Source: Phycomyces blakesleeanus NRRL 1555(-) | Taxonomy: Eukaryota; Mucoromycota; Mucoromycetes; Mucorales; Phycomycetaceae | Direction of reading: 5' to 3' | Assembly: GCF_001638985.1 (NCBI RefSeq) | Contig: NW_017265146.1 | Span: 1,165,382-1,229,381 of the forward strand | DNA: 64,000 nt | In this document: positions 37,303 to 64,000 of the stretch, piece by piece | How positions within the stretch are numbered: the stretch's first letter is position 1 | How the letters are laid out: every line of letters begins with the position of its first letter | Made by a program: the position numbers and the translations under genes | Notes under the pieces: model-generated | The model's input: the letters and a program-made list of their open reading frames with translations, nothing else | What the model was told of the DNA's origin: nothing | Databases searched by the model: none

Positions 37303-37334
<32 letters not shown>

Positions 37335-37396: not shown

Positions 37397-37397
37397 G

Positions 37398-40290: not shown

Positions 40291-40508
40291 TATAAACCCG
40301 GACATCCCAAATACCTTTTTGCAGTCCTGAGCCAATAGTCTTGAATGATGATGAGGAATTTATTCTTGTTGTAACCATATCCTAGTCGAGACTCTTGGTG
40401 TGCTTTTTGGCCAACCCAGCGAGATGGCGAGACTCTGGGTCAGCCTACTTGATGTTAAGCTTGTTGTGCTTGAAAGTTTAGATGCTTGAATGCTTGATAT
40501 CCTTTTTT

Positions 40509-40562
40509 TCATGTTCATGTTCATGTTCATGTTCATGTTCATGTTCATGTTCATGTTCATGT
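40509..40562. repeat. (ATGTTC)n hexanucleotide array
   Basis: Eight to nine tandem ATGTTC copies are visible directly; on the minus strand they read as Met-Asn repeats. No function inferred. Confidence 0.92.
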
Positions 40563-40639
40563 CTATGTTCAACTTTGCTTTGATACTGGATTCAATTTTC
40601 CGTAGAATTATATAAATGTATATATATATATATGCATGG

Positions 40640-42310: not shown

Positions 42311-42599
42311 TCTTACTCCTTGTTGACAGTTGGATCGCCTTTGAATCGGAGCACATACTTCAATAGGCTCTTTGGATCCTCTTTTCCTCTATTACTCGAA
42401 GACTTTGCCGGCTTTGACGCAGGATTGCGAGTTGGGAATGACTGGATTAGAGCTTGTTCAATCTCTTCACTTTCTTGCTGCTGGGTGCAGAAAAAAGATC
42501 CGACTCTACTGCCTCAGAACACTTTTCCTCTTTGCTGTTGGATGCAGCAATAGGATCAGACTCCTTGGAAGCTGAACTATTATATGGCAAGGGCACCAT

Positions 42600-44477
42600 T
42601 TATTTGACATAGGCTTTAGTACCGCCCATAGTCTTCACTCTCTTGCTGCTGGGGGCAGCAGGAAGATCTGACTCTTCTGCCTTGACATTCTCCTCCTTTT
42701 TGCTGCTGGGTGCAACAACAGGAGTAGAAGGCTTGGCAGCCGGGGGAGTTATTTGCCAAGGTGCCTTGAACTCAGCTTTAGCTGCACCACTTCCAGAAGT
42801 CTTCACTTTCTTGCTGCTGGGTGCAGCAACAGGAATAGAATAATTGGCAGCTGGAGTAATGGCTTGCCCTTGTGTCTTGAATTCTTTGCTTGGAGCCTTT
42901 CCCTTGTTACAGCTGGCTGCTGTAGAAGGTCCAGACGCCTCCCAGATAAAATTCGACAAAAGCCTTGGCCTCTCGGTGCGAAGGCCAGAGAGTGGCTTAG
43001 GCAGCTGTGAAGGACGATCACAAGAGGCCGAAGCCAACTTGATTTTCGATCCTTCATTAGAGGCCTTTGGTTCATCAATGGCCTTTTGACTGGCAGGCCG
43101 AGGGATCATCGAGTACTCCTCTTTTGGTCTGGAGACCGCCATTGGATACTCTCTGTTACCCTTGACCTCGTCGGCACCTTCCTTGCGTCTAGGGCTGGGT
43201 ACATTGTACTTCTTCTGAGAGGATGTTCCAGGTAGCACAATCTTTTTTGTGTCTTCATCCATCTTATCGTCTGCAGCCTGCTGCGGGACACAGGCTGGAA
43301 TCTTGTTCGTATCGCAATCCTTCTTTACAGACTGGGAGAAGTGCTGCAAATCGTCAACCGCCGGATTGCAGGTGTGGGCCACGAGCTCTTCGCCACAATC
43401 GGCATCAGGCACCATCACCTCAACAACAACAACATCGTCAATCTCCATAGGATCTTCAACTTCCACGACTTCACACCAAGCCAGGTCGTCGTCAATCTCC
43501 ATCGGTGTGGGAAGTCCTGTGGAGAGACATTCACCAAAAAATCCATTGGCTGATTGCCAAGACGATAGAGCGAAGGCCTCATGGAGACCCTCCACTGTTC
43601 CAGACTTTGGCTTTGGATCCTTTAAGCCAGCATTATTCAAACCCGATGGGGTCTGAACGGACTCTTGTCTTTGAACAAGAGTCTCCTCAGCTGACTTGGT
43701 AGCCAAGCCGCACTCTGGTTCAGCGACTTCAGTCAATGAGTCGCGATGAGCTTTGTTGGCAGAGTCGCTGAGCTCCTCTTCCAGCATCGCGTCAAGAAAT
43801 CTAGCAGAGAGTCTTGGCTTTGCAAAACCCTCTGAGAAAAATTTGTCACAGATGAATCTGAGTCGTGCGCTGACCTCAGCTTCATCGCATTCGTCTACAA
43901 ACTCACTCGACACACCCTCGTCGAGGTCTGCATGGGTTTCCCCACAGGTACCAGCCACGCCGTTAACTGGGAACACCATTGTAGCGATGCCACGTCCCAA
44001 CTCGTGCAAAGGAAGGAGGTGAGGGACATATCCCCGAAGCCCTGCTCCAAAGAACACGCTCGACTCTCCTACACAAACAACGCATTCCGCCTCCGAAGAG
44101 GAATCATTGACGGACATATGCCCTGGGATACCTCCGTGGCGCTTACTCAACAAGCTACCTGAGGGTTCTCCCGTTGTTTGCGAACCAATAGAACACAAAG
44201 AGCCTAGCCAGTTTGACAAGATGCCAAGGATCGTCTGAGGCATCACATTTTTGTGAGCTTCGACTTGATTCTCGCCGTCTAATCTCGCGTCAACAAATGG
44301 GGTTGCACCCACACCCATCATAGAGGGTCGTCTTCGTCTTGCAGGTTTGGCCATGCAAAAAGCAGAGGGCAAAGGAGAAGCCTCCCATAACATCACAGGG
44401 ATGAATAGGAGAGCTGGGGCAAGTAGATAGGCGAGCGCGAAGGCTGCGCAGAGAGCGTTGTAAACTTTGGAATTCAT
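42600..44477 (-). CDS. Hypothetical 625-residue protein with N-terminal hydrophobic segment and repeated lysine-rich motifs
   Basis: A single uninterrupted frame from 44477 to 42600, intronless unlike the intron-rich genes of the left half, and in GC-richer DNA. Residues ~5-32 are a hydrophobic anchor (ALCAAFALAYLLAPALLFIP), followed by a basic patch ARRRRPSMM. The middle is acidic and contains two PMEIDD motifs. The C-terminal ~120 residues repeat APSSKKxK-type blocks at least three times, alternating with Ala/Pro-rich linkers. These look like nuclear-localisation-type basic clusters. I do not recognise a family. Just past the stop codon a further in-frame-like stretch (to about 42445) contains another APSSKKVK block, so the gene may formerly have been longer or end in a missed exon. 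The hydrophobic anchor combined with basic clusters is hard to reconcile functionally. Confidence 0.6.
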   Translation of the reverse strand: MNSKVYNALCAAFALAYLLAPALLFIPVMLWEASPLPSAFCMAKPARRRRPSMMGVGATPFVDARLDGENQVEAHKNVMPQTILGILSNWLGSLCSIGSQTTGEPSGSLLSKRHGGIPGHMSVNDSSSEAECVVCVGESSVFFGAGLRGYVPHLLPLHELGRGIATMVFPVNGVAGTCGETHADLDEGVSSEFVDECDEAEVSARLRFICDKFFSEGFAKPRLSARFLDAMLEEELSDSANKAHRDSLTEVAEPECGLATKSAEETLVQRQESVQTPSGLNNAGLKDPKPKSGTVEGLHEAFALSSWQSANGFFGECLSTGLPTPMEIDDDLAWCEVVEVEDPMEIDDVVVVEVMVPDADCGEELVAHTCNPAVDDLQHFSQSVKKDCDTNKIPACVPQQAADDKMDEDTKKIVLPGTSSQKKYNVPSPRRKEGADEVKGNREYPMAVSRPKEEYSMIPRPASQKAIDEPKASNEGSKIKLASASCDRPSQLPKPLSGLRTERPRLLSNFIWEASGPSTAASCNKGKAPSKEFKTQGQAITPAANYSIPVAAPSSKKVKTSGSGAAKAEFKAPWQITPPAAKPSTPVVAPSSKKEENVKAEESDLPAAPSSKRVKTMGGTKAYVK

Positions 44478-45960
44478 TGAGATAAATGATGTTTAAACAA
44501 AGTGCGAAGGAAAGAAAAACAGGGGAGGTGGGAATAACTGAGGTATATATATATGTTTTTTGCTCACTGATGGTAGTCGCGCTGACATCACACTCTAAGC
44601 TACCAATATATTTGTTTATACGCCTTTATCAATTTGACACGCAAAGGTATGGATAGGTAAGAATTGTCTCCCCCCAAACAACTACCAGGCAGCCTGTATA
44701 TTTTCACATGATGATTAATACAGGTACCGCACGTCCTCTGAGGATTACCACACACACAAAAAGAACAACCAACCGGTTCATGTATATTTAACGCTTCTAC
44801 ACTGTGATAAGTTTCTATAGATTCACATCAACACTAAATCCAAGTACCAAGAGGTCTGTACTTTACTATTGTAAAAGGGCTTCATTATATATTTAATACG
44901 CTCTTCTTGAATATGTTATTTTATTCTATTTTATTCTAATCCATTTTATTTTATTTTATTTATATTGTGTTGATTAAACTCCCGAAATAAAATAAAATAA
45001 AATGAAATGAAAATTTTCTTCTGTTGGAACAAGAAGTGCACAGACCAGCTTAGAGTAACCTGAAAATTACCGTTATTGAAGCTTGTACTCTGTCTTTAGA
45101 GTTGTTACTACAACCAATCAAAACCAAGTCTTTCTTTACTCCTTTACTTCTTTACTTCTTTACTTTGATTTATTCTCTTTTGATTTACTTTGCAAGAAAG
45201 TTGGTTCTTGTGATGTAATGACTGTTTCTTATTGGCTGTTCTTTCCGTTGCATAACAGTTACACAATTACAGGTTAGTATAAATTAGAACCAATAGAAAG
45301 AAAAAACATGTACCAAAGTAGTAAAAAGTCATATTGACTATCGGATGCTTTCCCTCTTCCTTGTTATATTCAATACACATATAAATATTAACAGCTCTTA
45401 TGAGACCATTTTTTGTCAACAAAATTCCAGACCACTTATAAGACCCCCCAAACTGCAGTACTACAATTTAATATCAGGCCAAGGCAATTTTGTTGTTGTT
45501 GGATGGGCTGCTGTGTAAAGCGTACCAGTCAATCGTAACATAGTGATGTTATGAGAGATAGAGGAACTAACCTGCAATAAATTGTACTAACTCTTTATTG
45601 GTACCATTTACAGAGTTTTTGATGACTGGCAGTGGACGCTTTCGTAGTCGAATAAGCTGACCCTTGCTACTTTATAGTAAATTCTCGTTGGCAAGTTTGG
45701 ACCCTCCGTTATTCACGGAAGAGTCTCTTGATTATTGAAGCTAAACACGTTAAGGATTTCGTAATATAAGCTTGGAGCAATAAAATAATATAGCTCAAAA
45801 ATTTATAAGCCAACAATATTACATTAAATGTATTCCATTACTGGGTATGTATGCAAAGAATAAAGCACAAATACTTCATTCTGATAGCTGATACTTGTAG
45901 AAGACAACGAAGGTCTATCTCAACTATTGACATAAAATTTTATTGACATACACACACACA

Positions 45961-45995
<35 letters not shown>

Positions 45996-46150
45996 CTTTC
46001 ATGGATTTGCCCTTTTTATCAATGTTTAAAGACATATCAGATACAAATTATTGTTTTCTTGAATCTCTTGTATGTCTTTTTAGAGACAGCTGCTATTTTA
46101 CTAACAGTATATTAATACACATGTCCTAGTTGTATAAAGTTGTTGTGCCG
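44478..46150. other. AT-rich intergenic region
   Basis: No gene recognised. It contains TTTTA/TTCTA repeats near 44920-44960, AAAATAAAATAAA near 44986-45002, repeated TTTACTTC units near 45140-45165 and a (TA)n tract at 45964-45991. The first 200 bases may hold the promoter of the 625-residue ORF, with a TATATATATAT string near 44543. Confidence 0.45.
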
Positions 46151-46179
46151 AGATATAAATTATAAAAATTTTAATCGCC

Positions 46180-47090
46180 AACAACGAAAATGATCATTTT
46201 GATCAAATTGGCAAATTCTACACCAAAAATCAGCTATAAATCACTATTCATAAATATATTAGGCTCTATGACTATAAGCAACTTGGTTAGACATATTAAG
46301 ATCCACCTTATCAACAGTTTTTGGCATCGATTGCTCAAATATTGACTAAAACATCCTACATTCTCATTCTATAAAATCTTGATCCACTCGAAATTGGGCT
46401 ATTTGCACCAAAAAAGTACATTTTCGATACCCACTTTTACTCACAGGACAACTGAAAAAAGGTTTGGAGAATTTTCTTTTTAGTCTATTAAGTAAAATTG
46501 TGTAAAACATAAATACAGGTCTGCCAATGCTTTTCGGAGAAGAAACAAGTGCGAACTCGGGGAGATATAAACTACTCTAAAAATGCCTAAATTTGTTAAG
46601 GAAGTATATAAAAAAAAGGCAAATAATCTATCTACACCGTAGGGCTAAATAAATTACTGAGTTGGTATCTTTGTAATACATGTATAAATCACCAGAGTAA
46701 CATACATATACTAAATTGTCTTGTATAAGACCAAGCATTAGGTCTTCTTAATCTTTAATATTATTCTAGCTACATAAAGAGCTCCCTATAAAAAATTAGA
46801 GATGTATACCCTAAAGAAATATTGATATCAAACATGCCCGTGTGATAAAAATAACCCAAATGTTAATATTAACGGGGGTTTCTTTTAGATTGAAACGTTT
46901 TGACGTTTTGATCAATATTTGAGCAATCAATATCAAACAATATTTGGATAGTGGGTCTGTATGTGCCTCATCAGATTATATACAAATTTAAAGACCCTTT
47001 TCTTAACCGATCTGGATATATAGCTGATTTTCTATATTTAATTTCCCATTTTGATCAAAATGATCCTTTTTATTTAGCAATTTTTTTCTT
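46180..47090. repeat. Fold-back (long inverted-repeat) element
   Basis: Sequence near 46190-46250 (TGATCATTTTGATCAAA ... AAATCAGCTATA) reappears inverted near 47010-47075, and 46325-46352 (GATTGCTCAAATATTGA) is inverted at 46905-46935. Together they form nested diverged inverted repeats of about 150-200 bp enclosing a centre of several hundred bp, like a MITE or fold-back element. No transposase is present. A piece of it, about 46385-46450, is also similar in direct orientation to 49891-49960, directly beside the inner edge of the left long arm. Confidence 0.55.
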
Positions 47091-48109
47091 TCATTTCAGC
47101 TGTAAATTCAACGACATTCAAACTATATAGCAGTTGTCTGTTTAAGCCAATTATGTTCTTTCAGTAATTATGTCGTCAAGCGAAGGTAGGTTGATAAGCT
47201 AGGATGCGGAGAGTTGGAGAAACTTTTAGTTTTGATTGATTTGGTGTGATGTATAGAATCTATGATAATTAATGGTATACATATGATTATTCAAAGCAAC
47301 ATTACTTATTAGTAATAATCCTTGGGGCTTGAATATACTAAATAATAATAATAATAAAAGCATTACAGCAGATATGACCATCTTTGTGGTATATTATTGT
47401 CAAGCTGTATGTATAAAAGTATATAGTCGATATGGTACTTTTTATACTTATCTAAAGCCATTATTCTGCCTTGTATTAGAAAGGGCGTAGATTTGTAGTA
47501 GTGTGATAGAAAATTGCTACAAGTACACATTCACTCCATCATATTGAAACTTGGCTGTAATATATCGGGTAACTGGTTTTGGGTATAAGCGTGTTAATGA
47601 ACCGGGTTATTAATAGGTTTTATTTCCTTTCGTGAACCTGGTTCGCACCACAGTTCATTATTACCATAGTAAAATTCATTGCAGAACAGCCGTTATATAA
47701 GCAAACTATTCTTTTTTTTTCTTTGCTTAAAGAATTTAGCAATTTTAGCTTTAAATACATAACCGTTACAAAACGTACCTTGATCAATAATGTCAGACAA
47801 AAAATTAATTTTATTGGCTGATTTCATTTAATTTTTTGTTTCAATCGTTTCGATATCTTTAGACCGGCCATCACCTTAGAGTTTAAACAGCACGTGATTG
47901 CTTACATCATTCCTGCTTGCATCATTCTTGTTTGCGTCAGTCAACAGATGTTTTGCTGATATAATTGTGAGGTGCTGATTGTAATAGCCCTGCAATAACT
48001 TCAAATACACATTTACATTGCATGATGGTATGTATATAAAAGAAAGTCTGTCATTCGTTTAACTAATCAAATTTAACGTTCATGTTCTAATTGTATATAA
48101 AAGAAACGC

Positions 48110-48640
48110 GTTGTGTCATAGCTAAGAGGCATTAAGACTTCTAAGAGGCAATCTAGGCTAATGGACCCACGTCAAGATTCCGTGATATATTGGCAGCTCT
48201 TGTCTGTATTTCACGTCAAGATTCCGTGAAGTACAGTTGACCTTGTTATGATGCGACACGATAAATCTTCAAGTCCATCATCTGAAGTAAGTTTTATTTT
48301 TGTACAGGCTTTTTTAAAATGTAACGTCTAATGCTAATTGTTTTATCTCTTGGAATCTGATTTTCTCTGTATTATACGCTTAGGTCCCGTAATGTACAGC
48401 CGTCATTACTGGGGCGGAAGGTATGGCGAGTATTGTGTCATAGGACAGGGGCGTCACTTCCTCTAATGGCAGTCTAGGCTGGTATGTCTACGTCAAGGTC
48501 CCGTAGTATACTAGCAGCTCTTGTCTGTATTGCGCGTCAAGATCCCGTGTAATACAGTTGACCTTTCTATGGCACAATACATTAAATTTCCAAGTCCATC
48601 ATCTGAAGTAAGTTTTATATTTATACAAGATTTTTTAAAT
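48110..48640. repeat. Tandem duplication with paired CGTCAAGRTYCCGTR motifs
   Basis: Two diverged copies of a unit about 321 bp apart share CAGCTCTTGTCTGTATT and CCATCATCTGAAGTAAGTTT. Each copy carries two 15-bp motifs CGTCAAGRTYCCGTR exactly 44 bp apart, at 48170 and 48214 and at 48491 and 48535. A partial copy (AGGTCCCGT) lies at 48382. The fixed spacing suggests protein-binding sites, but this is inference. The same array is in the right arm in inverse orientation. Confidence 0.8.
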
Positions 48641-48951
48641 GCACAAAAGTCTAATTTTCATTTTCATTTTCATTTTTTAGAATATGTTGTTAATAAAAGT
48701 AACTCTTCTGAGAATAAACTCTTTGTTCCGATAACCACTTATCGCATGTCTTATCATTTTTTGAATAATTAGAATATAACAGCTTATATTTATTTCAAAG
48801 GGTTTAAGCCCACCAAATACATTATAAGAATAGTTACTTTATTATTATTAATAAATGAGATGTAAAAGAGAAGAATATGAGACCAAACTAGTGTAGGAAA
48901 CAAGGAAACATTTAAACAAAAATGAGTGTCAAATTGTGATATACGAATAAA

Positions 48952-49440
48952 TTGAAAAGAAACAATAAGTTCTATGAGTGTTATTTGTTAAATAGAGTCA
49001 GTATTGTATTGCTTATATATATTAATATTAAAGCTTCTTGTAATCCGAGTTCCTGTTGTTTAATGGTTGGTTTACATTGTGTAAGTGTGCAGTGTACATG
49101 TACCTGGCGTATAACAGTTCCAGAGGTTGTTAACTTACCGGGTCCGTTAGCAATAAGGAATCAGTGTTTGGTTGTGGAATCTGTGCCTCAGTCAATTGTG
49201 GTGTATATACTACACTTTGCAGTAAGAGCATTAGTAACTCATAGAGGACTGGGTAAAGGATAATACGAGTACAGAGTCAGATGGGAAGGCTATAAAGAAA
49301 AGGACGATACATGGAAAAAGCCTAAGTGATTTAACAGCCCTAAACATATTGCGGATTATTGAGATCGGCCTGGTACAGCACTAATTAACAAGACACAACC
49401 ACCGCATCAGACACGTACTGTTCTGCAAAGTACATTAAAA
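48952..49440 (+). pseudogene. Degenerate retroelement-like ORF ending in a chromodomain
   Basis: One frame runs from 48952 through a TAA at 49261 into a clear chromodomain-like stretch, YEYRVRWEGYKEKDDTW, then FNSPKHIADY and DRPGT. Two more in-frame TGA codons interrupt it. Chromodomains of this form sit at the C-terminus of integrases in chromovirus (Ty3/gypsy) elements. The upstream ~100 codons (VPEVVNLPG, then NQCLVVESVPQSIVVY) might be a decayed protease-like fold, a weak guess. The same stops occur in the other arm, so the decay predates the duplication. Confidence 0.6.
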
Positions 49441-49539
49441 AACCCCGCACTACGCAACCCACATCTACACGCCAAAGAAAAAGCTCAAGATGCTAATGCC
49501 GCATGCTAGTGTTCAAGAAGCTAACGTAGTTCCCTTAGT

Positions 49540-49896
49540 TTAAGGTAAATTGATTCTCTCGACACGGTTATTCAGCCTGGGAGGAGGTAATGTGATATAA
49601 ATAACACAATTTTTTGGTGCATACTCCATAATCAAACACTGGCTTCTTCTTACTAATGAACCTGACAAGTTAACAATCTCCGGAACTGTTACACACCAAG
49701 AATACGTACACCACATACTTAAACAGTGTAAACCAACAATTACACAACATGCATTTGGATTACAAGGAAATTTAATAGTAATGTGTGTAAACAATATAAT
49801 TTTGACTCTCTTTAATAAATCACTCTCACAGTATCTACTTTTCCCATATCGACATATTAACCCTAAATCAATCCCGAATACCTCACCGCCTACCAC
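49540..49896 (-). pseudogene. Second, diverged copy of the retroelement-like module, facing the first
   Basis: The minus-strand frame encodes a peptide clearly related to the 48952 module. Shared pattern: LLxRVxIxL, IxxxCNPxxCCxxVGLHC, then TVPEIVNLSGSL and QCLIMEY. DNA similarity is moderate, perhaps about 70 percent by eye. The two copies point at each other, so each long arm contains a smaller, older inverted pair. No chromodomain follows this copy. Not an independent gene. Confidence 0.55.
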
Positions 49897-52800
49897 TCAA
49901 TTGGACTATTTGCGCAAAAAGTCCATTATCGACACCCATTTTCACTCTGTCAAACTTTATTTATTTGTTTATCCCCTTCTTCATTCAATTATTACTGCCA
50001 AAGATGCAATTGTACTAAAAAGGATATCTCTTTGACTCTCTAATTTCAGACTACAATCTTCGTCAAGACAGCCCTACCTCTTACAATCTGCTCTTTTGGC
50101 TATATATATCACCTTGACATAACCAGAATCTAGCTTCTTATGTCGCATATCTTGGTTATCATTTTTTCTTAGCTATGCCTTGTGCCTGCAGTACATACCA
50201 CCAACGTCGATTGTATTTACTGGGATGCTCCACTGACCTCACCGCTCTTATTACGTCGAAACTGTATAATATATTGTGCATGCTCTTCGTTTTCTCCTCA
50301 ATCATATATTCTATCCAATCTCTTGGACGCAAATGTCTCGCTCATATAATGCTTCCCCTCTATTCGACTAAGCATTCTGCGACTTCATAAGCGCTATGGT
50401 GCTATCGGTGTCTTGGATCCATCTCATCAGCAATTCGCATTGCAGTTTTATTACATTCACCCTCTTTTTCATCGCTCCATCGATCATTACTTCTCTATTA
50501 TACGGTATTTACAATATACCATGAACACACATTGGGTAGAATTTAGTTACGAATTCCCTATTTTCTTTTTTGAAGTACGACCTGCCAGTCTAAAGTTGCC
50601 TTCTTCCATATTTGCAACCCTCTTTCGTGTATTCGACATGCTTACGTGTGGTTTTAGATCCTGGTTTCCCAACAACCCCACTTGTCTTACTTTTTCATGT
50701 TTTGCTATGTGGTCACGGCTCGTAGAAGGTCTCATGGTACGAAGACGGTGGACCCGGCCCTTATTGTCTGATATGCATTTATATTACTCTCTTTAGCGAT
50801 CTTTGGGTTCCTGTGAAAACATCTCCTTTCCTTAAAACTGTTACATCCCTATCCTGCGTATTAGAGCTTACTTAAAATGTGGTTGCCTCCTCTCTTGTAT
50901 TGTGCGTCGCTTTTTTTTTTTACCTGATCCCTTGTACCTATATGGCATCTCTTCGTCTACCAAGTCTCAATACTTTCTGTGCGGGTATTGATCTCTCTCT
51001 CTCTCTCTCTCTCTCTGATATTACTTCTATCAGCATTGCCTATCCGGAAATTCCATTTTCTTACAGTTTCCTCTCGGCTTGCTCTTCAATTTTAACCTGT
51101 TTTGCCACAATAACACTAGTATATCTTTTGGCGAGCAACTGTACATCATTCATCACACAGCATACGGTATCGTACTCTTCATAGAAAACCCTCTTGTCGT
51201 GAGACTATCCATAAATTACCTCTTGTTTATTCCCCAAGCCGTCTACGTTTTATCTGTCACGAACTCCCGAAAATTGCTGTGCACTTTCTTTTTGTGTAGA
51301 TAATGTTGCATCTCACATTTTTACTGCTCAGACATTGGGGGTGAGTGGCTGCGTAATTGTTGTTTAAGTGCTTAAGAAAAATCTAAGCTAGGTGACAAAA
51401 GATATACTACAATAATAATAAAATGACACAGATAAGATAATGAGAGTAAAGGGGAAAAAATAAGCTAGCCATCTAGTTCAAGTTGAAAGATTTTAATTAG
51501 CCTAAATGCTATTGCTGTGGGAACGATGAAAGAGAATGGGCCATTATCGAAAACTTTTTTTAATGGTATTTACAATCTGTCAGTACAATGAAGACCACAG
51601 CCTGGTATAGAAAGGTTCGGGGTGTTGGCGGTTTAATCGAAAAATAATAATAATATAAGAGTATAACTACTCAGATGACATGTCACAGAGAGTAGGACAA
51701 TATCCAAAGAGTGTCTGCCATATGACAAGCCACCCTCTCTTATTTTTCTTATTTTATAATTGACACTTTGAGTTACTTGTATAGCTCTCCATCTCTATAC
51801 ATATCTGTCTTTTGCGTTATACCTCTTTATCAAAAAGATAAACATCCGGACCTTATTCATTCATTTACAACCAAATAAAAAAACCCCCGATTTTTTTTTC
51901 TACTCTTTTAAGTAGGGTTGTGTAACGCATTAGTACGGCTTGCTTGATACTTGTCTGACTGATATGATTTAAGTATTAAACATGATATTCCTAGATAATA
52001 TACTAGTAGAATGTATAAAAAAGTACATAATAGATGAAATATCATTGTGTCTACCACTTGAATAATAAGCTGTAAGGGCTTTTATTATATTATGCCCTAG
52101 TTATTTAATTTTCTTAATATTTATAATACAATTTACAAACATGCGTACAAATCCACAACTCGCCTAAAATGTGAAATTAATGGTAATATAAGTAATTTTT
52201 GGACGATATTCAAAGTGCCGCGGTTTCGCACCGCTGGTATACAGGTTGATTTGTGACTTTCGAATTTAGCAGGAGTTTACAACACTTAAAAATCAAGCCA
52301 AATCAAACCAAATCAAATCAAATTAAAAGAATCAAGTAGTACAAAAAGTACTAAGGGGCAACTTGAATTCTAGATGTACATTTTTTTTTGTGATGAGCCT
52401 TGAACCTCACTTACTTGTATAGTGAATATCACGGAGAACGCCAAGGCATATTATCACTTTGACCTTTTCATTTCATTTTATTGCTATGAATTTAACTATA
52501 TATTATCTTGTATTTTCTCTAATACTAATAAACGGCGCATTACCCATAGTAGTTCTCATACAATATTTTAAATAAAAAGAAGAAAAATACGAGACATTAT
52601 ACTATGGCCAATACTCAGGATTATGGTATTAAGCAGAAAGGAGTAGTGTGGTCAACCGTGTTTAGATTTTTACGAATTCATCAAAATAATGACGGACATA
52701 TCTATCTATTCACACCATACCATACTACTGTCTTGTAAAATCAAAAATAAAAAAAAGAGGGTTAGATAGAACTTGTAATAATAATGCCAATGATATCAAT

Positions 52801-54690
52801 TTGCCTAGAAAAGACAAACTACATGCTCAAGTTATATGTATCTATTAGAGTTTCTTGTGAAACAAAGCTAGTCAATACAGGCCTTTGTTTAAATTACTTG
52901 TGTTTTCATTTGTCTTGATTTCAGCATATACAGTGTACTCATACTCATTATTTGCATATATGTCACAAATACAATCCAGGAATACCTTTGATTTTATTTC
53001 TGTTCTTTCACAAAGGCAAATGATTTAAACAATGAGGAATTAAATCTGACGGCCCCCCAAAGATGGACCTGCTTAATGTATGGGTGTAGCTTCTGGTACT
53101 TGATTGAACCTATTATATGTAGACGAAGGAGTCAGATTGACAATGCATTCAATAGCTGGATTGTCGTATTTGTTCAATTTTGAATTCATCGTTTGTTTTT
53201 TATAAACAAAACTATTTCTAGTTTAAACAAAACATAAGCGTTTCTTTTCGTTAACTCTATATGAATAATATCAAGGCTCACCTTTAGTATACTCTTTACC
53301 CTGTTTGTATAGTTTTCTTACTAAAGTTGATACCGCACATATAATTTTTGAAAAAACTCCTTGCTTTATCAATCGGTTATTTCTCTTTAAGCAAAATTTT
53401 GAAAATTATAATATAAAGAAGTTGCTACTAACACTACTTTGTTTGCTATATTTTCCTGTATATATATATATATATATGTGGTATTGATTGAAAATACTTG
53501 GTGTCCGTTTTTCGCACCTGCTCACAAATATTGTTGTCCGGACCTAGTGTTTGTATCGATGTCTCATAATTTATTTTCTGTTAAATCATACGGGCATGGT
53601 GTTTCTCTGGAATACTACGTTTGCTTTGATTGCCGCTTTTTTTTTATCGTATATTAAACTCATGTAAAGCGGCAGGTGATTCAGCATCCAGCAATTCAAT
53701 CTGATCCATAACTGTCAACAGTACTTTATGTAAGTTAAATTAATTTGGTTCAGTAATAAAGTACTGCGTTATTACCATACAATGAAGTTTCCAGTTAGAT
53801 TCAAGTAGTAAATATATTATAATATTATTACTTTTACGTATAATATGTGTACAAATTGTACACGTTGTAAACGCCGTGTCCCAAAATGGTTGTATCGTTA
53901 TGCGTCCACATAATAAATGAAATCATCTGAATTACTAGAATCCTCTTAATACTCTCAATCACTATTATACTTTACATAGAATTCTCCTTTACCAGTACAA
54001 TATCATACATAAAATTTGACTTGAATAACAAAGACTCCAAAGGAAATATCCAATTTCAAAGGCTTCTTTGGTTCATAATAGACCATTATCTCTTCAGGAT
54101 ACTACAGAGATCAAGCATTTAAAATGATGGTACAAGGAAGTAAGTTAAAGAAAAATACGGCTCCATTTGTTTAACTGGAATATCAAAGGAATAGAAAAAA
54201 TTGAAAAATAAAGAGAATAAACCATCGTTAAACCAAAAGTCTACTCTAAAATACGCACCCACCAACACACCCTTGGGACCCTAAAGTATTTTCTTTTAAA
54301 AAAAATCCACTAAAGCCACTCATTCTTCTGTGAATATGTTACTATAAGCAGAGCTGTCGTTACTCATAAAACCTTTACAAAACGTCTAAGAATATCCAAT
54401 GTCACGATCCCCACGTTCCCATGTAAGAGATCTATTTATCTTGTCTGTCTTGTCCAAGCATATATGATACCTGTTTGATCACATCAGCTGTTCTTGGTTA
54501 TTCAAGTCCAATTGGCTAACATTATCATTAATATGTTGTTTATTAATGTAATGTTTTATAGAGACACATCATGATAGGATACTACAAAGTATAGTGTGTC
54601 CAACTGGGAGTGGAGCATGTCGATAAAGATCTTCTGCTTTTCATTTACAGATTCATCAAGCTTAACGTATTATAGTCCTAGGAATAAAAG
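49886..54690. other. Interior of inverted repeat, left part: no intact gene
   Basis: About 4.8 kb with only decayed frames. On the minus strand 50735-50547 and its surroundings (RDHIAKHEK, GNQDLKPHVS, NTRKRVANMEEG) look like remnants of a protein gene broken by several stops and frame changes, of unknown family. A (CT)n tract lies at 50993-51017. A GC-rich hairpin GCGGTTTCGCACCGC is at about 52220-52234. TA repeats lie near 53458-53476. Nothing else is supported. Confidence 0.4.
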
Positions 54691-54694
54691 TTGT

Positions 54695-55210
54695 TTACAG
54701 CAAAAAATGTATAGTTTTAAAGGCCTGTGTGTCTATACCGACATTAATAAGTCCCAGTCTTTGTAGAATATGTGGGCTGTGACTGTAATTTGACTGCTTG
54801 GAGAGGCACAAGTTGACTGAATTCATGTTTAACCATCTTAATGATGTGTATTTATTTTGGATAATGTCAATTTCAATAAGACAGGGGTTTTTGATATGCA
54901 ATTCGACTAGGCATGAATAGAAAAATAGTGCCTTCGAAACTGGCTCTCTACTCGACAAGTGAATCAAACATACCTATAGATCTCTCAATACTTCTGAGAT
55001 AAAGTTAAGATACCTGTTGAAATGAATTGTCAAATCTTTATCACGGCGGATAAGGGGAAATTGAGCTCTTTCTACTTTTGTGCCAAAATCCCAAACAGTG
55101 TTGTAAAATATAGAGAATCTCAATTCATTAAAAGATCCCACAAATATTATGATCTTTTTAAATGAGAAAGGAATTGGACCAGAATTGATAGTATAGATCT
55201 TTGCATTCAA
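54695..55210 (-). pseudogene. LRR/F-box-protein-like gene fragment
   Basis: Two adjacent minus-strand frames (55210-54974 and 54967-54695) together resemble the LRR part of fungal F-box proteins: repeated hydrophobic strands such as LVELHIKNPCLIEIDI, YTSLRWLNMNSVNL and ILQRLGLINVGID. No F-box start and no continuous frame is present. It is similar in style to the 34.8-36.7 kb locus. Most likely a decayed member of an expanded F-box/LRR family. Confidence 0.4.
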
Positions 55211-55389
55211 AGATGAGAAGACGAAATCAATTTTTTGGGGTTGTCACAGGTTAAATTCGAAAAAAGTCTATCTTTCTAAAAGTGGTTTGTACTTCCGAAA
55301 TAAAGACATAACAATGATGCTTATATATTTTCCAATGAAGGTAGAGGGAGTGTCAAAGCATGCTTTGTTAGAAGTACTCCTATATATAA

Positions 55390-55540
55390 TAAAAAACAGT
55401 TAGCCGCTAAGTATTGTCATAACTTGATTGGCTAAAATTCTTCCACGCTAAGAATTCAAGACCAAATATTATAGTGAAAGTTGAGCCCTGTTTTTAGAAG
55501 GGGGCCGCCAGAAACATGAAATTATCAAGGGACCACTGTA
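55390..55540. repeat. Terminal fragment of a pogo/Tc1-mariner-like element
   Basis: Read on the minus strand, the segment begins at 55538 with CAGTGGTCCCTTGATAATTT and is flanked by TA. This is the form of pogo-family terminal repeats. A similar TAGTGGTCCCTCGCTAAC start lies at 61381 on the plus strand. The two ends face away from the interval between them, so they belong to different elements or to rearranged pieces. No transposase is seen. Confidence 0.45.
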
Positions 55541-56892
55541 TTGTATCTATGTTATCAAAAAGTGGCCTAAGGTTTGTCATAAAAAATAAATAAACGCAAA
55601 ATGCTTTACCTTTGGGGGAAAAGGTATTGAGTCATGTTGTCCCGTCCCAGGCAGCGATCGTACTAAAATGGGTACAACTTTGTGGTCCAGGAGAATCAAA
55701 ATGTGGTCTGCTACCAGAAGATGTCGTACTAAAACCAGGAAACGTCGTCTATCTATGGCCTGACTTACCAGTCAGTCCATAAGGTATTCCTATTAATATT
55801 GGTTTTTAATATAATTATTTCAAATATACAAGTACCAGTTCTTTAAGGATAATTGTGTTGCCTGGAGTTTTCCGGAATGCATAAAAGCTTACTTAATTTT
55901 CTTGAGAAAACTGTGATAAATAGACATTCCGTGTGCATTGGGGTCCCATTTGGCATGGACATCACTATTTAGCTTATAAGGGATTGCTTGCCTTATTTGA
56001 AGGAAGCAGACGTTGCTTCCCAGCAGAAATATAGAAATAACGTTAAAAAAACATTCAAGACATACTTTATCAATAATGTTTTTTTTATAGATTGATTAAT
56101 AAAAACATAGTAATAAATATATCAAATTTTTAGCTAACAATTGATGACTGCAATATTATGGGTTAAAATATTTGATACAATTAATTCTTTGTTTGATCCT
56201 TTCTGAGTTGATTATTCTATATCCATTATCTAAGTATGGGTACAAATTTAGGATAAGAAAGAAATTATAATGTGCTATTAACGACAGTAATTATCATACA
56301 TATACAGGAATTCAGCCGAACCTTAATATGAATTTTATTTACATACTTTGACCTTAGCCCATTGTGTCATAACCAGCTAAATATAAGCTATTACTCTCAC
56401 AGAAATTATAAAATAGATACAATAAAAACAATAACAATCTTTCATGCATTTACCTCTCTTTCTATTCTAATCACATAATGCTCTCTGTTCTTTCTCTCAT
56501 TTATATCACAATTTACCAACATACCAACTGAACCACCAATGAACAATAATGAGCAGTCATAATGATAATTCAAAATATTGAAAGTCTAACAATGATTTAC
56601 AAAGAGCAGATTGTGTTCAAAGATGCTTGGGCTAAATATACTCGCCTTCTGTCAAGAAATATGTATATATTGTCAATAAAAAAAAGGCTCCATTCTTATT
56701 TTATCATCAATACCCCCCCCCATTGTATTGATTGATAAAAATGATATATTACCAATTATCTTGAAACCAGCCCACGCCAAAAACTACCTTATCAGTTGAT
56801 ACCATAAAATTTGATTATAAAATATCAAGTATATATATAGTCCTTCTTTCTTCCGAACCCCATAGAGAAACAAAGTGAAAAAATAGTGAACG
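55541..56892. other. AT-rich region with promoter of the next gene
   Basis: No coding segment is supported. A C run lies near 56713-56720. TATAAAA at about 56816 and a TATATATATA run at about 56830-56839 precede the ATG at 56893 by 50-80 bp and are candidate TATA sites for the long membrane-protein gene. Confidence 0.4.
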
Positions 56893-59800
56893 ATGATTCA
56901 GCCGCATCTTATAACCGCACTTATATTTGCTTTTACTGCCATATTCAGTTATGTACTCTGGCCCACCAGTCTCGCTCCATACAACCCATCTCCAACCAAG
57001 AGAAATCAAATATACGATAAAACCTACAGTAAAGATCCTTCAACACATCGTAGCCAGTTTAAGTTTACACTTTTTAACACTGTCTACACTGAAGTACTTC
57101 CTACTATAACACATTTTCCGACTTTACCTGCCACCGGAACTTCGAGTATGCTTATAAAATATTGTGGACTCCCATATTAGTGCGCGACAACAAACCTCAC
57201 TCTCATTTCTCTCTTATTAGCACAAGAAGATATCATAGAAAAGGTCGAATCAGCTTTAGCCAGGGTTAATGTACCATCCGTATCTTCAATGCCAGCGTAC
57301 GATCCGAACATAGGGCGTAGGACGTTAACAAAATATGTTACAGTTACAGAGACTGTAAATTTCGAAACGGACATCGACAACAAGAAAATTGGTACTGAAA
57401 AAGACCAACAATCTGTTAAAGACGATACATTACAATATGTCAATAGGCGCGACCTCGTAAACATTGAAATTGGGTTTTCGCAAGCGACATTGGCTATAAT
57501 AGTCAACACACCTCGTTACCAGTGCACCAATCATGGAGAATATAAATTGTGCTGGCCAACTACAGAAGAGCACATTGACCGTACTATGGAACTCTCTTTT
57601 TACATAGCTGTCGCATGTTTTATGGCACAATATATTGCCCTCAATATCTTATTATATGTAACAGCGTATATCTTAACTTACTTCCAAAAAAAAATCAAAA
57701 GAATATTCGATAGATTCAATCGAGTAGAAAACTCACCCGAGTCAGTGCCAGAGAACTTGGAATCTGTGGATTTATTACCAAAAGAACCATCATCACAAGA
57801 AAAATCACCCAGTGTGTCCACACCAAGAGAATTATTGACAAGGAAATCTTTAGCAAGTGAATCGGCATCAGAAAATTTGGAATCGATTATAGCACGACGG
57901 AGAGGGCGAGGGTCGACTGCGTCCTCACCAAAAGGCGTGGATACATCACTTTCTAACTCATTAGGCCCATCTAATAGAAGCAACAATAGCTCCAGTATTT
58001 CGTCTTTCTGTCAAGACAGTAACAACGTATTAGATCCCGAGACGGCCCCATACACACATACTATATTATCTCGTAATATGGCCAATACTTCAGCACATCT
58101 CAGCACAACCATTACACCAGTAAATAGAGTTCATAGTCTATTAAAAAGTACCGCTGCCAATACAGAGTTATTATTACCAGTTACAAGACAACAATCAAAT
58201 GAAAGAGAAACATACTTAGAATCAAATATCTCGCTGTCTCCTCTAGGAATTACTCTTTCAAACTCTTCACCACCCGACCCAGCCATTTCCCCCGTACACA
58301 GTTCATTGGGCTCAGATAAAAACAACTCTGCATCACCAAACCCAATAAACATAGACGGGCAGGCTGCTGCTCGTAATTACGACTTAAATATTCCTGAGCA
58401 AGAATCATGTATCGATGGTAGTCTACCCGCAGAATTTTCCAGTACAATGGTGCCTATTGACAGTGATGGTACTTTATCACCTTCCGATGCAGCAACTCTT
58501 ACGATGGATAATTATGTAGATCCTAGCACAGCTGGTATATCAAGTCCAGTCAATATTAGTCCTGCCATGTCTTTTTCCGGTACAACTATTCCTATTGTGC
58601 AGCTTCCAATATATACTCGTTCCAACGACTCATCTACACATACTAGTAACAGTGCTACACTATCTAGTTCAGGTACAACAATTCCTATTGTACAAATTCC
58701 AATACAAGCTCGTCCGGGCAACAGATCTGCACAGTACAGTGGTAGTCCTGTCCTGTCCGATTATGGTACAATGATTCCAATTGTACAAATTCCGATAACC
58801 AATAGAATAAACGAAAGAGCAGAGGCAGCAAATAATAGTAACATTTTACTCTATACTGATTCGTCTCATCCTATTGTGCAAATGCCAGTATATACAAGTA
58901 GGTGTGATTTATCACCGAGGGTCAGTTTTACTAAATATCTACCGTCTTCAGGTACAACAGTTACCGAAAGCAATAATCCAATAGATTCTAGCACATCAAT
59001 TACTGCAAGTCCAGATAGTAGTGGGATTTCATCATCTGCGTCCGGTACAAGAATTCAAACAGCCGGTAACGACATTGATTCTGCTGAAGCGATAACAGCA
59101 AGACATACCAGTGGTAGACCTTCTCCTGCTACTTCCGGAAAAGGAACTCCTGTTATTGCGGGTATAGAATACATCTCTACAACAATTATATCGAGACCAG
59201 CTAGTGGTAGACCTTCTTCAACTGCTTCCGATAAAGGGTCTCCTCTGATTACAGACCTAGAAGACTCCAGCACAGAAAACCCCGCGGATTATAATAACAT
59301 TGATTCTACTGCAGCGATTCGATCAAAATCAGCTAGTGGTAGACCTTCTCCAATTGTATCAGGCACAGGAACTCCCACAAATGATAATAACGTTGATTCT
59401 ATTCCAGCAATTAAATTATCCCATATAAGTGGTAGACCGTCTCCAGCTTCTTCTAGTAAAAGAACTCCCCCGCCTGCGGATCTAGAGGGAAAATCTACAT
59501 CAATTACATCAAAACCAGCTAGTGGTAGACCCTCACAATCTGGGTCTGATAAAGGGACTCCTCCTGAGGATCTAAAAGACACGACTCCATTAATTGTATC
59601 AGAGCCTGCAAGTGGTGAGCTTTCACCATCTGTATCCGGTAAACGAACTCCTCAAATTGAGAATCTAGAAGGCACGACTCCGTTAATTGTATCAGAGCCT
59701 GATAGTGGTGAACTTTTACCATTTGGGTCCGGTAAAGGGACTCCTCCAACTGAAGATATAGAAGACACGGCTCCATTAATTGTATCAGAGCCTGCAAGTG

Positions 59801-60498
59801 GTGAGCTTTCACCATCTGTATCCGGTAAACGAACTCCTCAAATTGAGAATCTAGAAGGCACGACTCCGTTAATTGTATCAGAGCCTGATAGTGGTGAACT
59901 TTTACCATTTGGGTCCGGTAAAGGGACTCCTCCAACTGAAGATATAGAAGACACGGCTCCATTAATTGTATCAGAGCCTGCTAGTGGTGAACTTTTACCA
60001 TCTGTATCCGGTAAACGAACTCCTCAAATTGAGAATCTAGAAGGCACGACTCCATTAATTGTATCAGAGCCTGCTAGTGGTGAACTTTTACTATCTGTGT
60101 CCGGTAAACGAACTCCTCCAATTGAGAATCTAGAAGATACAACTCTGTTAACTCCATTAGAGCATGCTAGTGGTGAACCTTCACCATCTGCATCCGGTAC
60201 AGGAACTCCCGCTTCTGATTTGTCTTCAGCGGATCCAAACTTAGTTATGTCAGAACTAGATGGTGTTAGTTCCTTCCAATCTGGTTCCTATACAAGAACT
60301 CGTTCGCCCAGTACAACCGATCTAACCACGTCTGGCACATCTACACCAACCACTCTGAGTATTCCGGTTATATTCGTTTCTAGAGCAATGATTGATATCG
60401 TGGAACTTCCAGAAGACATTCATACTCGTAACACAGCACCCAAGGACGACGATAGTACTGATCAGTCTCCTTTCTCCCACAATGATTCAAATTATTGA
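56893..60498 (+). CDS. Hypothetical 1176-residue single-pass membrane protein with long S/T/P-rich repeat tail
   Basis: Exons 56893-57145 and 57221-60498 join in phase through a 75-bp intron. The N-terminus is a signal-peptide-like segment (residues ~5-25, ITALIFAFTAIFSYVLW). A transmembrane helix lies at about 210-235 (FYIAVACFMAQYIALNILLY), followed by KKIKRIF, which places the C-terminal ~940 residues in the cytoplasm by the positive-inside rule. The tail is low-complexity. It holds four spaced IPIVQ(I/L)PI-type motifs (residues ~535-640), SGRPSP repeats, then a 31-residue repeat with consensus around PLIVSEPxSGELxP and SGKxTP. No known domain is recognised. It is the only long intact gene between the inverted arms. 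It could be a host gene trapped between repeats or cargo of an element. Confidence 0.7.
59573..60190. repeat. In-frame 93-bp tandem repeats (31 residues), with 186-bp higher-order units
   Basis: Seven units of about 93 bp encode PLIVSEPxSGEL...SGKxTP. Two successive dimers, starting near 59580 and 59766, are almost identical over 186 bp, showing recent duplication of a two-unit block. Flanking units are more diverged. The repeats keep the reading frame, consistent with selection for protein. Confidence 0.9.
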
Positions 60499-61451
60499 AC
60501 TCCCTGTATCTGGTGCATTTATCATTGACCCAACTGATATTAGTAGGCTTGGATTAGTATATACGTATTAAAGAAATAATTATAATGTTCTCTCTGTACA
60601 ATAAAAGCAAACAGACTTTACTTGGATTTATAGTAAGAATCTACTACTTGGTATCTATCTTACCATAGGAATATTTATATATAAGAATGATTTAAAATAT
60701 TTCTTTATCTTATCAAAGGTTCGTTTTGCTATAAAAAGATTCGGACTTCCCTGCTTAAAGCTAATTAAAAAAAAAGTTGCTAGTTATGTTTATTTGTCTT
60801 TAAATGAATATAAAAAATTTAGATATAATTCGATCTGTTTAATTTTTTATAAAAGATGAAAAGTATAAAGTCATCAGTTGCTAGCTAATAATTTGATTCA
60901 TTTACTACTATTTTTTTATTAGTAAATTTAATAAAGAATAATACTGATAAAGCATGTTTTGAATTTTTGTTGTACTTTTGCTGGTAAGCAATATTTGTTG
61001 CTTCTAACAAAGGCAAACAATTGCTTTGAAGCCGGACAGGGACGTCCATCCTAGAAGGGTCCTCAATACACATAACATTTCTATTTTCCACAGTTTGCTC
61101 AATTTTCTTAATCTGCCCAAGTAGTAGGCTTTTAAGATATGATTATATGATTCAATTAGACTTTTATGTGAAACATGGTTTTCTAATAATAATAGTAACA
61201 AATAGTTCGTACATAATACATAATATATATACATTCTCATCAGAGAAATCATCGTTAGATTTCTTGGTTTCTAGTAGTCCCAAATAAAAGTACACGTCAA
61301 TTTCGTTATGTTATTACTTCTAAAGAATTCAACTAAATAATACAAGCCTTTGTGTTTTTATACAAAAATACGTGTATGTATAGTGGTCCCTCGCTAACTT
61401 CAAGGTCAAGGGAGGGGGCTAAGTGCTTTAAAATTTTTGAAGAATGGAATT
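60499..61451. other. 3' flank and short spacer before right arm
   Basis: AT-rich DNA with no supported gene. The minus-strand frames here are short and not protein-like. A pogo-like terminal sequence begins at 61381 (TAGTGGTCCCTCGCTAAC) only 71 bp from the inner edge of the right arm. Confidence 0.45.
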
Positions 61452-61797
61452 TGAGGTATTCGGGATTGATTTAGGGTTAATATGTCGATATGGGAAAAGT
61501 AGATACTGTGAGAGTGATTTATTAAAGAGAGTCAAAATTATATTGTTTACACACATTACTATTAAATTTCCTTGTAATCCAAATGCATGTTGTGTAATTG
61601 TTGGTTTACACTGTTTAAGTATGTGGTGTACGTATTCTTGGTGTGTAACAGTTCCGGAGATTGTTAACTTGTCAGGTTCATTAGTAAGAAGAAGCCAGTG
61701 TTTGATTATGGAGTATGCACCAAAAAATTGTGTTATTTATATCACATTACCTCCTCCCAGGCTGAATAACCGTGTCGAGAGAATCAATTTACCTTAA
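61444..61797 (+). pseudogene. Right-arm copy of the facing retroelement-like module
   Basis: The plus-strand frame is identical from GIDLGLICRYGKS onward to the minus-strand frame at 49896-49540. Only the first few codons, outside the arm, differ. It therefore shows the exact inner boundary of the arm inside an open frame. Not an independent gene. Confidence 0.55.
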
Positions 61798-64000
61798 ACT
61801 AAGGGAACTACGTTAGCTTCTTGAACACTAGCATGCGGCATTAGCATCTTGAGCTTTTTCTTTGGCGTGTAGATGTGGGTTGCGTAGTGCGGGGTTTTTT
61901 AATGTACTTTGCAGAACAGTACGTGTCTGATGCGGTGGTTGTGTCTTGTTAATTAGTGCTGTACCAGGCCGATCTCAATAATCCGCAATATGTTTAGGGC
62001 TGTTAAATCACTTAGGCTTTTTCCATGTATCGTCCTTTTCTTTATAGCCTTCCCATCTGACTCTGTACTCGTATTATCCTTTACCCAGTCCTCTATGAGT
62101 TACTAATGCTCTTACTGCAAAGTGTAGTATATACACCACAATTGACTGAGGCACAGATTCCACAACCAAACACTGATTCCTTATTGCTAACGGACCCGGT
62201 AAGTTAACAACCTCTGGAACTGTTATACGCCAGGTACATATACACTGCACACTTACACAATGTAAACCAACCATTAAACAACAGGAACTCGGATTACAAG
62301 AAGCTTTAATATTAATATATATAAGCAATACAATACTGACTCTATTTAACAAATAACACTCATAGAACTTATTGTTTCTTTTCAATTTATTCGTATATCA
62401 CAATTTGACACTCATTTTTGTTTAAATGTTTCCTTGTTTCCTACACTAGTTTGGTCTCATATTCTTCTCTTTTACATCTCATTTATTAATAATAATAAAG
62501 TAACTATTCTTATAATGTATTTGGTGGGCTTAAACCCTTTGAAATAAATATAAGCTGTTATATTCTAATTATTCAAAAAATGATAAGACATGCGATAAGT
62601 GGTTATCGGAACAAAGAGTTTATTCTCAGAAGAGTTACTTTTATTAACAACATATTCTAAAAAATGAAAATGAAAATGAAAATTAGACTTTTGTGCATTT
62701 AAAAAATCTTGTATAAATATAAAACTTACTTCAGATGATGGACTTGGAAATTTAATGTATTGTGCCATAGAAAGGTCAACTGTATTGCACGGAATCTTGA
62801 CGCGCAATACAGACAAGAGCTGCTAGTATACTACGGGACCTTGACGTAGACATACCAGCCTAGACTGCCATTAGAGGAAGTGACGCCCCTGTCCTATGAC
62901 ACAATACTCGCCATACCTTCCGCCCCAGTAATGACGGCTGTACATTACGGGACCTAAGCGTATAATACAGAGAAAATCAGATTCCAAGAGATAAAACAAT
63001 TAGCATTAGACGTTACATTTTAAAAAAGCCTGTACAAAAATAAAACTTACTTCAGATGATGGACTTGAAGATTTATCGTGTCGCATCATAACAAGGTCAA
63101 CTGTACTTCACGGAATCTTGACGTGAAATACAGACAAGAGCTGCCAATATATCACGGAATCTTGACGTGGGTCCATTAGCCTAGATTGCCTCTTAGAAGT
63201 CTTAATGCCTCTTAGCTATGACACAACGCGTTTCTTTTATATACAATTAGAACATGAACGTTAAATTTGATTAGTTAAACGAATGACAGACTTTCTTTTA
63301 TATACATACCATCATGCAATGTAAATGTGTATTTGAAGTTATTGCAGGGCTATTACAATCAGCACCTCACAATTATATCAGCAAAACATCTGTTGACTGA
63401 CGCAAACAAGAATGATGCAAGCAGGAATGATGTAAGCAATCACGTGCTGTTTAAACTCTAAGGTGATGGCCGGTCTAAAGATATCGAAACGATTGAAACA
63501 AAAAATTAAATGAAATCAGCCAATAAAATTAATTTTTTGTCTGACATTATTGATCAAGGTACGTTTTGTAACGGTTATGTATTTAAAGCTAAAATTGCTA
63601 AATTCTTTAAGCAAAGAAAAAAAAAGAATAGTTTGCTTATATAACGGCTGTTCTGCAATGAATTTTACTATGGTAATAATGAACTGTGGTGCGAACCAGG
63701 TTCACGAAAGGAAATAAAACCTATTAATAACCCGGTTCATTAACACGCTTATACCCAAAACCAGTTACCCGATATATTACAGCCAAGTTTCAATATGATG
63801 GAGTGAATGTGTACTTGTAGCAATTTTCTATCACACTACTACAAATCTACGCCCTTTCTAATACAAGGCAGAATAATGGCTTTAGATAAGTATAAAAAGT
63901 ACCATATCGACTATATACTTTTATACATACAGCTTGACAATAATATACCACAAAGATGGTCATATCTGCTGTAATGCTTTTATTATTATTATTATTTAGT
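61452..64000. repeat. Right arm of the long inverted repeat (runs off window)
   Basis: The reverse complement of 47337-49885, 2549 bp within the window and still matching at the last base, so the arm continues beyond 64000. It has the same contents in reverse order: the diverged module, chromodomain remnant, motif-paired tandem duplication and TATA-like sites. One substitution changes a residue in the 62074-62385 frame, and two others are in the 62565-62816 region. Confidence 0.95.
61900..62385 (-). pseudogene. Right-arm copy of the chromodomain-ending remnant
   Basis: Counterpart of 48952-49440. It carries the same frame and the same stop codons before and inside the chromodomain-like stretch, with one Thr-to-Ile difference (CTC versus CIC context). 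The shared stops show that the element was already dead when the arms were duplicated, or was homogenised afterwards by gene conversion. Confidence 0.6.

Follow-up and report, generated by a model that had tools for sequence, protein, structure and literature searches.

Results and discussion

Layout of the inverted repeat

The window, that is, the whole stretch of 64,000 nucleotides analysed here, corresponds to positions 1165382-1229381 of contig C13 in the genome of Phycomyces blakesleeanus NRRL 1555(-). It contains a large inverted repeat around a spacer, with the following layout.

36916..49885, + strand: left arm, full extent 12,970 bp (13 kb), a reverse-complement match to the right arm; 44006-47336 faces N
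36915/36916 and 49885/49886: breaks at the two ends of the left arm
49886..61451, no strand: spacer (11,566 bp), holding a single long gene and fragments of repeats
61452..64000, - strand: inner part of the right arm within the window; it continues outside to the equivalent of 76890, with 5743 N in between

The original prediction described two reverse-complementary arms of 2549 nt each (47337-49885 and 61452-64000), separated by 11,566 nt and differing by three substitutions, the right arm running past position 64000. Alignment confirms the arms and their spacing, and places the substitutions at 48544, 48550 and 49097. Self-alignment of the contig extends the inverted repeat from 36916 to the equivalent of 76890: positions 69744-76890 match 44005-36916 with 98.45% identity over 7153 aligned columns, and the 5743 N at 64001-69743 lie opposite 3331 bp of the left arm (44006-47336). 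The length of this repeat alone excludes chance. Long, near-identical inverted arms flank a spacer that lies outside the repeat, as is expected of a palindrome maintained by conversion.

It is highly improbable that the repeat is an assembly artefact, in which one copy was folded back or a blended consensus made unlike arms look alike. Such an error could be suspected from the N run inside the arm that adjoins the window end, and from gaps in two related palindromes described below (100 N with a redundant 1969-bp overlap in C10a; 1097 N in C10b); all observations come from one assembly, and of the four palindromes read through, three have N runs in or beside an arm. However, the sequence runs without N from the left flank through the left arm and the spacer to 2.5 kb into the right arm, and another palindrome, C21, has the same architecture with no N. 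The substitutions that had been advanced against an artefact number 45, plus indels, over the full window arms, and the outer flanks do not align apart from three short weak stretches, which makes a fold-back unlikely.

The differences between the window arms are patchy, in the manner of conversion tracts. One identical run extends over 4538 bp, whereas random placement of the 45 differences gives at most 2355 bp (5000 placements), and 32 of the 45 substitutions fall in one 492-bp block.

38976..39467, no strand: divergent block between otherwise near-identical arms; the left arm is similar to the C13:614/653 copies, the right arm to the C1 copy

In this block the left arm agrees with C13:614, and the right arm with C1, at 33 of 40 differing columns in each case; the remaining copies are mixed between the two states.

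Content of the arms and spacer

42603..44492, - strand: arm gene, a stop-to-stop frame of 630 codons, 625 aa when read from ATG; its 5' side faces the spacer
42204..43257, - strand: variable cassette comprising most of the C-terminal half of the arm protein; poor alignment to the C21 copy, both flanks 89-92% identical
37242..37355, - strand: U6 snRNA gene near the outer arm end; mirror copy at C13:1241833-1241946(+)
57289..60498, + strand: gene in the spacer, coding for 1069 aa and containing tandem repeats of 93 bp; no Pfam match
49214..49885, no strand: dispersed-repeat copy ending at the inner arm boundary; many other copies stop at query position 2549 (= 49885)

A sequence search assigns the arm frame to the family of a protein named 'secreted neurofilament-like protein'. 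The frame is open over 576-643 codons in 13 of the 14 arm copies examined and is constrained by purifying selection, and its polarity is the same in all five inverted pairs, with the 5' side towards the spacer. None of the 11 matches in either protein search (7998 best candidates scored) lies outside Phycomyces; judged by sequence, the arm protein gene is genus-specific. A single weak Pfam match appeared, with a best E of 0.06, in three of ten arm-family proteins. The C-terminal half of the protein occurs in two types, which align poorly with each other.

U6 sequences were found at 23 places above the family cut-off, six of them within long copies of the block 36916-38300, not counting the window arms. 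Since U6 is also present in these other block copies, it is not specific to the palindrome. Short reading frames also recur in the arm's outer half: several are present in some of eight copies, the most frequent one, of 104 codons, in five.

The long intact gene that had been noticed in the spacer stands, as an ATG-to-stop frame of 1069 aa; Pfam gave no match for the corresponding stop-to-stop frame, 57181-60495. Elsewhere, stretches of the spacer resemble dispersed repeats (74-86% for the longer matches). We rejected a hairpin at the inner junction, as the two spacer repeat pieces give no strong inverted match.

A family of palindromes

P. blakesleeanus has at least five large gene-bearing palindromes with related gene copies in both arms, the one in the window among them. 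The five inverted pairs examined are that of the window, C13:614-662k, C21 and two on C10 (C10a and C10b); arms are about 9-13 kb long in the window, C21 and C13 pairs. The arm repeat itself is dispersed, with matches of 2.5 kb or more at no fewer than 20 places (query included), and the copies on C1, C11 and C40 appear unpaired. In each genome search the best 39-40 candidates were scored, which makes the copy numbers minimum values and the label 'unpaired' a provisional one.

Arm identity is 98.4-99.9% within the five pairs and about 87-93% between pairs, with the exception of C10a versus C10b (98-99%). The arms share 99.92% identity in C21 (4 mismatches in 8781 columns), 99.38% in C10a (5 mismatches and 63 gap columns in 10964, with 4 further mismatches in 4153 columns beyond the N gap), 98.49% and 99.75% in C10b (8 and 1 mismatches), 98.82% in C13:614/653 (34 mismatches in 8967 columns), and 98.45% and 99.88% in the two aligned stretches of the window pair. 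In a FastTree phylogeny of 14 arms, each of the five pairs forms a clade (support 0.976-1.000). The earlier suggestion of two dispersed copies in opposite orientation therefore holds in that the arm is a dispersed repeat, but fails in that mates are far closer to each other than to the other copies compared. Besides the closeness of mates within the five pairs, the C10a and C10b palindromes are also close to each other. The apparently unpaired C40 nests inside the C10/C21 clade (support 0.908), which would need arm loss, ectopic exchange or an unassembled arm.

Paired and unpaired copies do not differ in GC content, which for the outer half of the arm ranges over 41.2-42.2% in both groups; this gives no support to GC-biased conversion as the cause of the GC-rich arm core.

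The original prediction allowed for a giant element. Some boundaries agree with such a reading, in which a transposon moves as a unit and its terminal inverted repeats are many kilobases long: C21 (494687) and C6 (162240) have a common left end, C21, C10a and C10b have arms plus spacer in common, and the U6-containing block starts exactly at the equivalent of 36916 in several copies. Nevertheless, we consider it very unlikely. A search within 6 bp of the outer edges of the window and C21 palindromes revealed no target-site duplication of at least 4 bp, inner and outer ends vary among copies rather than being precise, and Pfam identified no transposase domain in the two longer frames scanned, those of the arm and the spacer. 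Furthermore, C6 has a single arm and part of the spacer, the second arm being absent through 175000. A 21-base motif near the C6, C21 and C10b edges was rejected as a transposon end: it is found elsewhere too, with 18 genome matches at no more than one mismatch (7 exact). With two of its matches next to the C11 copy, at a distance of about 300 bp from each other, it looks like a small repeat adjoining the palindromes and not an end.

Probable maintenance of arm identity by conversion

Among the alternatives first put forward, the best fit is the palindromic amplicon whose arms gene conversion keeps identical. The window probably holds a large gene-bearing palindrome, from a family of at least five, whose arms are kept alike by arm-to-arm conversion. 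C21 aligns end to end with C10a, through the spacer, at 91.9%; the C21 spacer alone is 89.6-89.8% identical to those of C10a and C10b, with matching inner junctions. Because C21 and C10 share the spacer (about 90%) and both inner junctions, the palindrome predates their split; its arms, which show 4 and 5 differences over the main aligned stretch, must have been homogenised afterwards. In C21, C10a and C10b alike, the palindrome is older than the divergence of its arms. C10a and C10b differ from each other at 49 sites in 11.2 kb, which exceeds the differences within the arms of either. The C21 and C10 palindromes demonstrate arm-to-arm conversion; for the window pair we infer it.

Such a palindrome consists of a duplicated segment, placed in inverted orientation on either side of a spacer. 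The arms would pair, and one would be overwritten by the other through non-reciprocal recombination (gene conversion or break-induced copying). Overwriting would preserve the likeness of the two gene copies in a palindrome, whereas those at separate loci would diverge, and occasional conversion from distant copies would bring in variant blocks, such as 38976-39467.

Alternatively, each palindrome could be a separate and recent inverted duplication, produced for instance by template switching, with arms alike only through their youth. This would agree with the inner and outer ends that differ among the window, C13:614 and C21/C10 pairs, with the apparently unpaired C1, C11 and C40 copies, and with a window inner boundary that is the end of a dispersed repeat. 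We nevertheless regard it as unlikely: C21, C10a and C10b have a common spacer and junctions even though about 10% divergence separates the spacers of C21 and C10, so they descend from one older palindrome. The patchy identity of the window pair also speaks against mere youth, though a single later patch could yield it. The inner junction of the window pair differs from those of C21/C10 and C13:614; thus, this pair alone could be a recent inverted duplication with one later ectopic patch.

Comparison with known palindromes

Near-identical gene-bearing palindromes are best known from animal sex chromosomes. Compared with the human and ape sex-chromosome palindromes (PMC8981503, PMC3723533), those of Phycomyces are dispersed over several fungal contigs, with no sex chromosome implied; the arms of the window, C21 and C13 pairs are about 9-13 kb, paired and unpaired copies have equal GC, and three of them are demonstrably of shared ancestry. 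Inverted-repeat gene pairs of Caenorhabditis elegans, compared with C. briggsae and C. remanei (PMC1803023), likewise place homologous genes in inverted repeats that are long and near-perfect and in which the arrangement is longer-lived than the sequence; the logic for C21 and C10 is the same. However, that study concerns orthologues across species, whereas here paralogous palindromes occur in one fungal genome, together with apparently unpaired copies and a two-type cassette. The springtail Folsomia candida has palindromic gene blocks, with a rotifer case cited alongside (PMC5490193); these too lie outside a sex-chromosome setting and gene conversion has been proposed, but they are collinear gene blocks, whereas one gene family occupies all five Phycomyces palindromes.

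In fungi, the homogenized-inverted-repeat centromeres of Candida tropicalis (PMC7292649) are similarly inverted repeats kept alike. Inverted repeats around a core have fungal precedent (PMC6107279, PMC7292649), and one of these reports (PMC6107279) describes the centromeres of P. blakesleeanus as not yet mapped and gives no obvious homologue of CENP-A for it. A centromere-type repeat is nevertheless scarcely credible here: the arms carry a constrained gene, and C10 and C13 have two palindromes each (contigs that may not equal chromosomes).

Palindromes were counted for the Rhizopus mating locus only, and none for P. blakesleeanus, in the accessible part of another report (PMC3000332). In the open-licence PMC literature, as far as its text was available, we found no published account of such palindromes in Phycomyces; the gene-bearing, conversion-maintained examples found there are from animals and plants, mostly from sex chromosomes. 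Several related palindromes and apparently unpaired relatives in one fungal genome would open the rate and tract length of conversion, and also the value of pairing, to measurement.

A more speculative reading, which we hold to be rather doubtful, is that of a diversification system. Palindromes would keep two gene copies alike, and some 20 dispersed arms would shuffle C-terminal cassettes of about 1 kb, together with patches, between loci; the gene product may be a genus-specific protein of membrane or secreted type. Beside this reading we note the two poorly alignable cassette types, which lie between flanks that are 89-92% identical.

Extent of the palindrome

The original prediction placed two 2549-bp segments 11,566 bp apart as reverse complements with three substitutions between them, and this is what the alignment gave. 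The right segment had also been expected to continue past the window; once the neighbouring DNA was aligned, 7.15 kb more inverted repeat at 98.45% identity was found beyond a run of 5743 N, which starts immediately at the window end and faces 3331 bp of the left arm. The window covers C13:1165382-1229381. In window numbering, extended past 64000 for equivalents, the features are as follows.

36916-49885, left arm of the window pair
61452-64000 and an outer part to the equivalent of 76890, right arm of the window pair
42603-44492, minus strand, 630-codon arm gene
37242-37355 (left arm) and C13:1241833-1241946 (right arm), U6 snRNA genes

The two sides do not align further outside the arm breaks. 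Strain NRRL 1555(-) is haploid, and hence the window arms are not two alleles.

A family of palindromes

The outer 7.1 kb of the arm served as query against the 53.5 Mb genome (one assembly, 60 contigs). Of 176 candidates, 39 were scored, so that the counts are lower bounds: at least 20 places, the query included, carry arm matches of at least 2.5 kb. Ten of these form five inverted pairs, of which the window pair is the fifth.

Other inverted pairs (named after their contigs)
C21: 494683-503461 and 505203-513982; 4 mismatches in 8781 columns; spacer 1741 bp; no N
C10a: 264149-275095 and 276830-287747; 5 mismatches, 63 gap columns
C10b: 371984-377029 with 384259-389367, and 379805-380616 with 382349-383161; 8 + 1 mismatches
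C13:614, the second palindrome on the window's contig: 615633-624557 and 653079-662015; 34 mismatches across 8967 columns; spacer roughly 28.5 kb

C10a has a 100-N gap, at which 1969 bp are redundantly repeated; past it, the arm extends to at least 261965 and 292000 with 4 additional mismatches. The right arm of C10b contains a 1097-N gap. C6 has a single arm with about 1.35 kb of C21-type spacer, and no second C6 arm was found through 175000; the C1, C11 and C40 copies are apparently unpaired among the matches listed. On C15, two arm copies (805862-809857, minus; 855908-859869, plus) lie about 46 kb apart in the polarity opposite to the five palindromes.

Homogenisation within palindromes

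Arms of different pairs are about 87-93% identical, except for C10a versus C10b (98-99%). In a tree of 14 arms (38.5-42.2 kb region) the five pairs form five clades with support of 0.976-1.000, while one deeper node has support of only 0.099. The alignment of C21 with C10 continues through the spacer at 91.9%; taken by themselves, the spacers are 89.6-89.8% identical, with junctions that match within about 20 bp, so by alignment C21 and C10 have the palindrome itself in common. With approximately 10% spacer divergence and only 4 or 5 arm mismatches per 9-11 kb, independent drift of inherited arms cannot be the cause; homogenisation must therefore have taken place inside each palindrome. The same ordering of divergences is seen at the younger C10a/C10b split. 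As judged from sequence, it is only the C21/C10 comparison that proves the action of homogenisation on an old palindrome.

Between the window arms, 9639 left-arm positions hold 45 substitutions, of which 32 fall within 38976-39467. Next to this block lie 4538 identical bp, whereas the longest run in 5000 random placements was 2355. The block has 40 differing alignment columns; the left arm has the C13:614 base in 33 of them, and the right arm likewise matches C1 in 33. The remaining copies are mixed (C6, for example, 19 left and 17 right). Elsewhere each copy is equidistant from both window arms within two sites. The simplest reading is that the left-arm block was copied from a C13:614-like copy, since its distance from C13:614 is 3.0% within the block versus 6.3% outside; a donor for the right-arm block instead is conceivable.

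We propose that the arms pair, within one chromatid or between sisters, and that a break in one arm would be repaired from the other, by which two divergently placed gene copies would remain alike. We infer this pairing and repair step from the pattern; homogenisation alone is demonstrated, and it may be a mere by-product of the inverted layout, without benefit. One patch (38976-39467) supports exchange between loci, which is also suggested by differing cassettes within similar flanks. All of this comes from one assembly, with N runs inside or beside arms.

The arm gene and its two cassettes

The 630-codon frame, of the 'secreted neurofilament-like protein' family, had 11 protein matches, all from Phycomyces blakesleeanus strains or P. 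nitens (the latter at 32% identity). An uninterrupted frame of 576-643 codons starting MNSK is present in 13 of the 14 copies examined; in the fourteenth, in the right window arm, it is broken by the N run. dN/dS is 0.32-0.64 (Nei-Gojobori, whole frame, 36 pairs of nine loci), and in 20 between-cassette-group comparisons of alignment columns 1-400 the means are 0.22 for dS and 0.094 for dN. The protein start, hydrophobic and then basic, was read by eye as a putative signal or membrane segment. Pfam gave no fitting family for these proteins, and no paper containing both 'Phycomyces' and 'neurofilament' was found among open-licence PMC papers.

Past column 400 there are two protein types: window/C13:614/C15/C1 versus C21/C6/C10/C11/C40. 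At columns 420-540 the window protein is 21-27% identical to the latter type and 62-65% to its own, which makes the window cassette fairly divergent in its own right. DNA of the cassette (42204-43257) gave nothing better than E 0.001 against the C21 copy, in pieces of about 30 bp, while its flanks are 89.3% and 91.7% identical to that copy. The closest protein from another strain has, for example, four cluster members on one contig; such counts hint at several similar copies in that strain, not at palindromes as such.

Junctions, spacer and flanks

The inner break of the window pair (49885) coincides with a dispersed-repeat end. It lies at a different position from the inner breaks of the other palindromes, which fall at the equivalent of about 45.7 kb in C21/C10 and of about 46.66 kb in C13:614; the break therefore gives no support to a common origin with them. 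The piece 61379-61451 directly adjoins the right arm; other copies of a dispersed repeat carry it and 55321-55540 next to each other with their order reversed. The spacer gene contains 93-bp tandem repeats (59465-60302).

At the outer break, the right arm has the U6-bearing block beginning at the equivalent of 36916, and so do C13:614257, C13:1264646-1265844 and C13:675643-676440; the left flank from 36300 onward is common to C13:758771-760768. Genome-wide, U6 scored above the cut-off at 23 places, 19 with identical score, several within long copies of this block. The outer flanks have only three short inverted similarities in common (66-212 bp, 67-79%), the longest of which (212 bp, 67%) lies inside F-box-like frames. 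Such frames flank the palindrome on both sides, at 36367-36702 (score just below its cut-off) and at the equivalents of 78277-78972 and 88987-89998. Past the right arm, outside the window, a Helitron-type element occupies the equivalent of 80315-86740 (L013:315-6740, minus strand), with a frame matching Helitron_like_N and DUF6570 followed, one codon position apart, by a frame with a PIF1 helicase match.
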